A stretch of DNA of 64,000 nt from an uncultured Tidjanibacter sp. (GTDB lineage Bacteria > Bacteroidota > Bacteroidia > Bacteroidales > Rikenellaceae). Below the pieces are notes generated by a model. The model was not told the origin of the DNA. It ran no database searches and was given only the letters and a program-made list of their open reading frames with translations. Below are positions 56,073 to 57,989 of the stretch, piece by piece; position 1 is the first letter of the stretch; every line of letters starts with the position of its first letter. The stretch is from assembly GCA_947852905.1 (NCBI GenBank), contig CANTVF010000003.1, forward strand, positions 124,001-188,000, in the 5' to 3' direction. The translations under genes and the position numbers were made by a program.

Positions 56073-57989
56073 ATGGATAACTTCATAGTTTCAGCAAGAA
56101 AATACCGTCCCGCCACCTTCGAATCGGTCGTGGGACAATCGCATATAACATCTACGCTAAAGAATGCCATAGCGCGCGGACAGCTGGCCCACGCATATCT
56201 GTTCTGCGGACCGCGCGGTGTCGGCAAGACCACCTGCGCACGTATATTCGCAAAATCCATAAACTGCCTCAATCCGAAAGACAGCGAGGCTTGCGGGGAA
56301 TGCGAGTCATGCCGGGCATTCAACGAAGGCCGCAGCTTCAACATACACGAACTCGACGCCGCATCGAACAACTCGGTGGACGACATCCGGTCGCTCACGG
56401 AACAGGTACGGATACCGCCTCAGATCGGACGTTACAGCGTATACATAATAGACGAGGTGCACATGCTTTCGCAGGCGGCATTCAACGCTTTTCTAAAGAC
56501 GCTCGAAGAACCTCCGGCACACGCCATATTCATTCTGGCCACGACCGAGAAACACAAGATAATCCCCACGATATTGTCACGGTGCCAGATCTACGACTTC
56601 AACCGGATACGCGTGGAGGACGGAGTGGGTTATCTCAAATACATAGCATCGAAAGAGGGCATCTCCTATGACGACGAGTCGCTCAACCTGATAGCGGCCA
56701 AGGCAGACGGCGGCATGCGCGACGCGCTGAGCATGTTCGACAAAGCCGTGGCATTCTGCGGCACGACGCTGAATTTCCGAGAAGTGGCACGTACGCTCAA
56801 CGTACTCGACTACGACACGTATTTCAACGTGACGGCCATGGCCGCGAAAGGCGACTACAAATCGGCGCTGCTGCTGCTCGACGAGGTATTGCGCAACGGA
56901 TTTTCGGCACAGACGTTCATCGGCGGCCTCGCCGCACATCTGCGCGACCTGCTCATGTGCAAAGATCCCGCTACGGCTCCTCTGCTCGAAGCCACCGGAA
57001 CATTACTGGACAGATACAAATCCCAGAGCGCACAACTCGACACGGGTTTCCTGTTCAATGCTGTTTCGCTAATCAACTCTACGGACGCTTCGATGCGCAG
57101 TGCGACCAACACACGGCTCCACACCGAACTCGGTCTGATGAAACTGTGCGGCCTCGGTCAAAAAAAAAATGATTTAGAGCCGGACGCCCCGCAGTTGCCG
57201 ACACTCGACACGGCTCCGAAACATACGCCCGCACAGCAGACAGGCCAACAACCTGCACAGCAACGCCCGCAAACCGTCTACAATACGGAACGACATGTCG
57301 CACCACACCCCGCTCCGGGCCGACAGAATTACGCAGACCCCGCCACCTCTACCGCCGGCACCGGAACGGCTACCCCAATGTCAATGCCCAACACTACGGG
57401 CAATCAGCCGCAATCAGCCGCAACGGTACAAAATACGTCAAGGCACTATGAAACGAGCCCGACACCCGCAACGAACACAACCGAGACAACGCACCAACGA
57501 CCCTCGCAGGCAAAACCCACTGCCGGCAAGACCATATCCGGAGTATCCATTTCCGATCTGCTGAAAGGCGGCGGCCAAGCCAAATCCGCCACAAACGAAG
57601 CGACGCCGGTCGCCGCGCGCACGTCAGAAATAGATCCCGACAGTCAGGAGAAACTGCTCGCCGCCAGAGACAGATTCGTCGAGGCGCTGGGAAACAACCG
57701 CCCCCGGATAGCGACGGCTTTCGCCAACATGACGGTAAACGGAAACCGGATAGCGTTGACCGTATCCACCGATCTGCTGAAAGACGACATAGTACAGCAC
57801 CAGAAAGAATTCGCCTCATTGATGAGGCAGATCTCCGGCGTCACCGGCCCTATAGAATTCGATATTACCGTAAAAGAGGACAAAGGCGCCGTTCGTCCCA
57901 TAAAACCGGAAGACAAACTCGCTCACCTGCGTGCAAAAAACGAACTGCTGGACGAACTGCGCAAAGAATTGACTCTGGAAATAGAATAA
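56073..57989 (+). CDS. dnaX: DNA polymerase III subunit gamma/tau
   Basis: Clamp-loader ATPase, 638 residues. Domain I: KYRPATFESVVGQ, Walker A GPRGVGKT (46-53), zinc Cys C65, C74, C77, C80, Walker B YIIDEVHMLS and sensor-1 FILATTEKHKIIPTILSRCQ; domains II-III reach about residue 360. A Pro/Gln/Thr-rich linker (about 370-510) joins a C-terminal tau-type domain (about 515-638). At codons 363-366 lies an uninterrupted A10 run (57160-57169) in frame as CAA AAA AAA AAT. Slippage either way meets a stop at once (TGA at 57170, or TAG at 57175), giving a product of about 366 residues equal to domains I-III, as gamma is in other bacteria. Confidence 0.95.
   Translation: MDNFIVSARKYRPATFESVVGQSHITSTLKNAIARGQLAHAYLFCGPRGVGKTTCARIFAKSINCLNPKDSEACGECESCRAFNEGRSFNIHELDAASNNSVDDIRSLTEQVRIPPQIGRYSVYIIDEVHMLSQAAFNAFLKTLEEPPAHAIFILATTEKHKIIPTILSRCQIYDFNRIRVEDGVGYLKYIASKEGISYDDESLNLIAAKADGGMRDALSMFDKAVAFCGTTLNFREVARTLNVLDYDTYFNVTAMAAKGDYKSALLLLDEVLRNGFSAQTFIGGLAAHLRDLLMCKDPATAPLLEATGTLLDRYKSQSAQLDTGFLFNAVSLINSTDASMRSATNTRLHTELGLMKLCGLGQKKNDLEPDAPQLPTLDTAPKHTPAQQTGQQPAQQRPQTVYNTERHVAPHPAPGRQNYADPATSTAGTGTATPMSMPNTTGNQPQSAATVQNTSRHYETSPTPATNTTETTHQRPSQAKPTAGKTISGVSISDLLKGGGQAKSATNEATPVAARTSEIDPDSQEKLLAARDRFVEALGNNRPRIATAFANMTVNGNRIALTVSTDLLKDDIVQHQKEFASLMRQISGVTGPIEFDITVKEDKGAVRPIKPEDKLAHLRAKNELLDELRKELTLEIE

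Follow-up and report, generated by a model that had tools for sequence, protein, structure and literature searches.

Does a run of ten adenines inside an otherwise uninterrupted dnaX gene mark the point at which a second, shorter clamp-loader subunit is made, and if so, is it the RNA polymerase or the ribosome that slips there? In the window that raises this question (the whole stretch of 64,000 nucleotides that we analysed), dnaX lies on the + strand, as do all its features given here, at 56073..57989. It is a single frame of 638 codons, and its full-length, tau-like product of 638 residues matches the dnaX_nterm model (TIGR02397) with 433 bits for a cut-off of 250. Domain III, the last domain of the short form, covers residues 237-361 (56781..57155; PF12169, E 0.0012, below the gathering score), and because this weak match ends at residue 361, the A10 run directly adjoins the domain, as a sequence-only reading had proposed. 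That reading had also placed the run, correctly to the base, at 57160..57169, in codons 363-366, codon 363 beginning at 57159 (CAA AAA AAA AAT GAT TTA). One extra A, or a -1 shift, leads to the TGA at 57170..57172 and to a product of 366 residues; one A fewer, or a +1 shift, gives ATG ATT TAG, a product of 367 residues, and the TAG at 57175..57177, also reached with two A more, thus ends a product of 367 or 368 residues. The two stops end 3 and 8 nt past the run (all stop distances here are counted from run end to stop end), and both can be read off the sequence just as had been claimed, the expected product of about 366 residues with domains I-III coming to 366-368. The remainder, 57178..57989, holds the linker and the conserved C-terminal region recognised by our C-terminus profile, and is missing from the short form.

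Taken by itself the run is unremarkable, since an A10 tract is expected 0.27 times per window and at least one such tract was found in 16 of 100 shuffles; its conservation is the remarkable part. The whole 2.24-Mb genome has four A/T tracts of at least 9, two of which are of at least 10. The gene combines the features of the Thermus type (at least nine A, tau as a single ORF and nearby stops in both other frames) with an E. coli-type heptamer, A_AAA_AAA, which stands in phase and is followed by the -1 stop at 57170; the favoured A_AAA_AAG is absent.

Our preferred reading, to which we give a probability of about 0.72, is that of programmed slippage by the RNA polymerase producing a gamma-like DnaX. 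The A10 run would be a maintained recoding signal on which the polymerase slips, yielding some dnaX mRNAs with 9, 11 or 12 A; these slipped mRNAs would encode a gamma-like protein with domains I-III, 366-368 residues long, and those left in register the 638-residue tau-like protein. We infer the occurrence of slippage, its transcriptional nature and its rate alike. It seems very probable from the comparisons below that a short DnaX is programmed and, if it is, the polymerase would probably be the route.

Conservation of the run among relatives

The family Rikenellaceae, in which the sequence-only reading had proposed a comparison, agrees with the nearest named records. Among 23 genomes of the genus, domains I-III of dnaX were found in 22, and one contig stops short of the site, leaving 21 genes. 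The run is present in all of them (A9 in five, A10 in 13, A11 in two and A12 in one). A break of the run by synonymous codons in close relatives, an outcome that the sequence-only reading had considered, was looked for: at least nine A are kept in all 21 despite a Lys usage rich in AAG, this codon being found 240 times and AAA 135 times in codons 1-358 (n=375), whereas at codons 364-365 all 42 Lys codons are AAA.

The run extends well beyond the genus. A draw across the phylum comprised 296 genomes, 293 of them with dnaX, and included 72 other genomes of the window's class, whose 72 loci were all read. Of these 72 genes, 68 have a run of at least nine A no more than 130 nt from where domain III ends (A9 in 8, A10 in 52, A11 in 7, A12 in 1), representing 39 of the 41 genera sampled, as told apart by genus codes, with g2 and g15 lacking the run. 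Elsewhere in the same genes such a run occurs neither in 75,930 nt of upstream coding sequence nor in 46,800 nt taken at 150-800 nt past domain III. A second set, of named genomes, owes part of its members to a search with the peptide GQKKNDLE, which biases it to runs; here 57 of 78 loci have it (L012 and L015, of the 80 loci, were too short, and L003 is the same record as genus locus L085), with no occurrence in 83,484 nt upstream and two in 49,252 nt downstream. Named strains that carry it include Pedobacter puniceum (L017), Chitinophaga terrae (L042) and Hymenobacter polaris (L031). In other classes the run is present in 10 of 37 loci, hand-picked from the 220 other-class matches of the phylum draw.

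When the class and named sets are put together (n=150), the longest A-run near the site measures 9-13 in 125 genes (A10 in 96). In the remaining 25 it measures 2-6 (22 genes) or 7 (three genes), and a length of 8 does not occur. Across the class, the position of the run and its codon phase drift while the run itself persists. On these counts the conservation of the A-run is beyond chance. It is nevertheless dispensable in some lineages, since 4 of the 72 genes of the class and 21 of the 78 in the named set lack it (L009, L022, L115 and L116 are examples of such relatives). In 22 run-less loci, in-phase A_AAA_AA(A/G) sites were found in six, and no clear replacement for the run appeared.

Reading frames and stops behind the run

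In the class, tau is encoded as one ORF, as in the window, in 37 of 72 genes, 33 of which have the run. The other 35 are split: the zero frame ends at the run, present in 35 of 35, and the conserved C-terminus continues in another frame, which is -1 in 34 genes and +1 in one. A C-terminus profile built from 148 long-ORF genes, the window gene included, matched out of the gamma frame in all 35. Because tau is out of frame in these 35 of 72 class genes, its production there needs the slip. The window gene, with tau in frame, does not have this two-ORF arrangement. Class and named sets together, the C-terminus is in -1 in 45 of 47 split genes that have the run and a placed C-terminus; it was not placed in L029, and L019, which has a long zero frame and its C-terminus in -1, was counted as single and excluded from the comparison of stops below. 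The two +1 cases of the 47, L074 and L150, stand behind A10 and could reflect deletion-type slippage or a surplus A from an assembly or sequencing error. Another +1 arrangement was seen in L063, a dnaX without an A run: about 70 nt beyond domain III its zero frame closes at ...TGC TAA, and the tau C-terminus follows in +1. The GGGAG ahead of the stop is reminiscent of prfB, and this single case may be an error.

The history of these arrangements was traced on a FastTree tree of 166 rows, to which the genus contributed 8 of its 22 loci and the other classes 7 of their 37, with L003 excluded. The label run or no run changes nine times along the tree, and the label single or split changes 18 times among the genes with the run; nine of the latter changes are left when only starred branches are trusted, many forks being weak and several long branches meeting. 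Since the split state needs 18 changes while the run stays, the run outlasts the frame that it serves. Such a pattern is expected where a gene yields substantial amounts of both the slipped and the unslipped product; the portion consulted of a review (PMC5009743) says as much for dnaX. Flips of lone rows, such as L112 and L150, may be assembly errors, but an error would less easily account for the split clades, which comprise 17, 6, 5 and 3 rows.

For each gene, we measured in both non-tau frames how far behind the run the first stop lies, and took the same measure at other places in its tau part for comparison. In the genus, 18 of 21 genes have both stops no further than 30 nt away, for 1.3 expected. 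In the class this holds for 27 of 33 single genes (7.6 expected) and 35 of 35 split genes (10.6 expected), and in the named set for 40 of 43 single (10.8 expected) and 11 of 12 split genes (2.2 expected). With sequences clustered at 70% identity, and with L003 and L019 excluded, the count is 24 of 26 versus 5.7 expected, the maximum in 2000 resamplings being 12. Each non-tau frame also closes early by itself in these clusters, with mean ranks of 0.16 and, for the +1 frame, 0.26 versus 0.5. By this test, the presence of stops in both frames is beyond chance.

Polymerase, ribosome or accident

E. coli makes the short form of DnaX by -1 ribosomal frameshifting. The dnaX of the window would share with it the outcome and the stop in the -1 frame, but it differs in that its genus has no Shine-Dalgarno-like element, in having A10 instead of A_AAA_AAG, and in the closure of both shifted frames. 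A ribosomal -1 shift on A_AAA_AAA, taking place on a uniform mRNA, is the first alternative to weigh, and we consider it unlikely, although several observations speak for it. Every run of at least nine A also holds an in-phase A_AAA_AAN heptamer, and in the window the -1 stop follows immediately. The predominance of -1 among split relatives is not decisive, as it suits insertion-prone slippage and -1 ribosomal frameshifting alike. Shine-Dalgarno-like words before the run, searched with a wide list that finds E. coli's element, are somewhat more frequent than expected in the class (11 of 68 genes versus 5.3) and in the named set (10 of 57 versus 6.2), which would fit ribosomal shifting in some lineages; in the genus, the window included, they are found in 0 of 21 genes versus 3.3 expected. 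A narrower list, which misses E. coli's element, gave 0 of 21 in the genus, 7 of 68 versus 4.1 in the class and 6 of 57 versus 4.3 in the named set. Downstream folding is slightly stronger in the genus (mean z -0.86 versus -0.10 at a control place, in a test of low power). The same low-power test yielded no class-wide signal (mean z -0.42 versus -0.32 at the control; -0.44 versus -0.24 in the named set). In the window itself z is 0.39 and 0.31 for two stretches, so that no hairpin stands out, in line with the earlier impression that there was no clear one, but the test is weak: the E. coli dnaX site reaches only z -0.87, and we therefore draw nothing from folding.

Three properties of the run would favour transcriptional slippage over the ribosome, and make the polymerase the more likely of the two slipping agents. 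The runs measure at least 9 and never 8, whereas a ribosomal heptamer needs only 7; polymerase slippage and selection are described for A9 in the part consulted of an earlier study (PMC1088944). The run also appears indifferent to codon phase. Finally, both shifted frames tend to be closed, including the +1 frame, which a -1 shift does not reach, and a ribosome shifting to -1 would need one stop only.

Other explanations do without a programmed shift. The run could be an accident of the Lys codons of the linker, on which rare slippage would occur to no purpose. An A10 is indeed not improbable in a window, and L009 and its like manage without one, but we hold this explanation to be very improbable: AAA is invariant at codons 364-365 where AAG is the commoner Lys codon upstream, the run persists through drifts of position and phase, the stops in both frames exceed chance, and the split genes would yield no tau at all in the absence of a shift. 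Still more improbable, in our judgement, is phase variation at the DNA level, in which gain or loss of a genomic A would switch cells between tau and gamma. An A10 is a mutable tract and frame flips did happen in evolution; within the genus, however, the tau frame is kept in 21 of 21 genes, the run starts at the same aligned codon position or one later, and its length differences resemble substitutions at the run end. Besides, tau is expected to be essential.

Programmed slippage by the polymerase, the reading that we prefer, has precedents in dnaX. Larsen reportedly described in 2000 transcriptional slippage on an A9 run in the dnaX of Thermus thermophilus. The window gene resembles it in having tau in one ORF, an A homopolymer, stops in both shifted frames and gamma as the presumed product of slippage; it differs in its A10 versus the A9 of Thermus, and in the place of the run, which adjoins domain III at codon 363 of 638, that of Thermus lying seven-eighths of the way along the gene. 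Slippage is established in Thermus, whereas the case of the window is known from sequence. The consulted parts of two papers cite the Thermus slippage (PMC1088944, PMC5009743). In the sections consulted of Antonov 2013 (GeneTack, PMC3711429), 17 two-ORF dnaX genes from 12 genera are given, nine of them with A10, in which tau needs the shift, and transcriptional slippage is proposed for them. Judged on those sections, and by arrangement, not by species names, these genes share the A10 with the window and the -1 arrangement with 45 of our 47 split relatives; unlike them, the window dnaX is one ORF with tau in frame, a form that we would not expect a screen for frame transitions to return. This kind of dnaX is thus already known, from Thermus and from the two-ORF genes, and the window would be a further member. 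In the literature searched, whose coverage is incomplete, we found neither class-wide conservation of the run nor repeated frame flips.

An in-frame UAG and a second A10 tract

In one distant genus, two loci that lack the run (L069 and L081) are interrupted by an in-frame TAG where gamma would end, and their tau C-terminus continues in that same frame. This TAG is present in 35 of 35 loci inspected in that genus, and the open frame is at most 439 aa in 93 of 94 dnaX matches from 93 genomes. The TAG-type loci (L069, L081, L250-L252, L254, L257, L258, L260, L264 and L329-L356) share, in 36 of 36 distinct loci, the motif TAGATWGCNAGR, that is, TAGAT[T/A]GC[A/T/C]AG[A/G]. The third codon positions 5, 8, 11 and 17 vary and the encoded Ile-Ala-Arg is kept, so that the stretch after the TAG looks translated in frame. 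This looks like a candidate for programmed UAG readthrough, by which that genus would make tau, although reinitiation or a suppressor tRNA is possible instead. A consensus hairpin after the UAG was rejected (RNAalifold gave none, energy 0), as was an interspersed repeat, each of the two genomes tried having a single copy. UAG as a sense codon is not favoured, 13 of 42 long open frames besides dnaX ending in TAG in the stretches inspected, a weak count based on mechanical ORFs. Other members of that family have an A9-A11 run (12 of 14 split and 5 of 24 single loci) or neither run nor TAG, as typed in 79 loci, four of them untypable. The UAG pattern was found in 0 of 393 genomes of the window's own order; as an observation, it may be newer to the literature than the A-run. 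Readthrough in dnaX was not found in the literature searched, of incomplete coverage.

The role of gamma was long disputed. According to the portion consulted of the review, the place of gamma in the E. coli holoenzyme is now established, and the subunit is important for UV resistance and for mutagenesis by Pol IV (PMC5009743). The odds seem to us slightly in favour of a phylum that keeps its tau/gamma pair of clamp-loader subunits by recoding dnaX through exchangeable routes: slippage on A9-A13, with either tau or gamma as the in-frame product, and, for one run-less genus, programmed UAG readthrough at the same domain boundary, with the slippery run reused in copA of the window's genus. A run kept class-wide while the frame flips, together with another device where the run is gone, would be comparative evidence for a selected short DnaX far from E. 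coli. It also suggests that the annotated dnaX of many species is cut in two or misses one product.

A copA-like gene outside the window holds the genome's only other tract of at least 10 (L225, G000:C6:59187-59196, - strand). The zero frame of this gene encodes a metal-binding domain and closes just behind the run (...IQKKK-stop), and the ATPase continues in -1, all these names being a reading of the sequence. In the genus, A10, stop and frame are common to six of the eight genomes having this ATPase; in the two most divergent, the gene is one ORF and its junction is without a run. As a class-wide feature this run was rejected, since A-runs of at least 8 near the junction were found in 0 of 29 loci (the best 29 of 66 genomes with this ATPase, our own included); it was seen in the window's genus only, and as an observation the split of copA by the tract may be newer to the literature than the run in dnaX. 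The 37 exact A10 tracts across the genus comprise 13 in dnaX, six in copA-like genes and 18 elsewhere; of the latter, 15 were inspected, and in no case does a long open frame extend to both sides of the tract; L366 comes closest, with 85 open codons before and 13 after. In E. coli, the short product of copA arises by -1 frameshifting, according to the consulted passages of the review (PMC5009743). As far as these passages allow the comparison, the A10 here likewise parts a metal-binding domain from an ATPase, but the short product is that of the zero frame and it is the pump that needs the shift. Also outside the window, a helicase-like ORF contains an in-frame A9 at about codon 23 (L222, G000:C2:40073-40081, + strand; CAA AAA AAA ATA), where one A fewer would lead to an immediate TAA.
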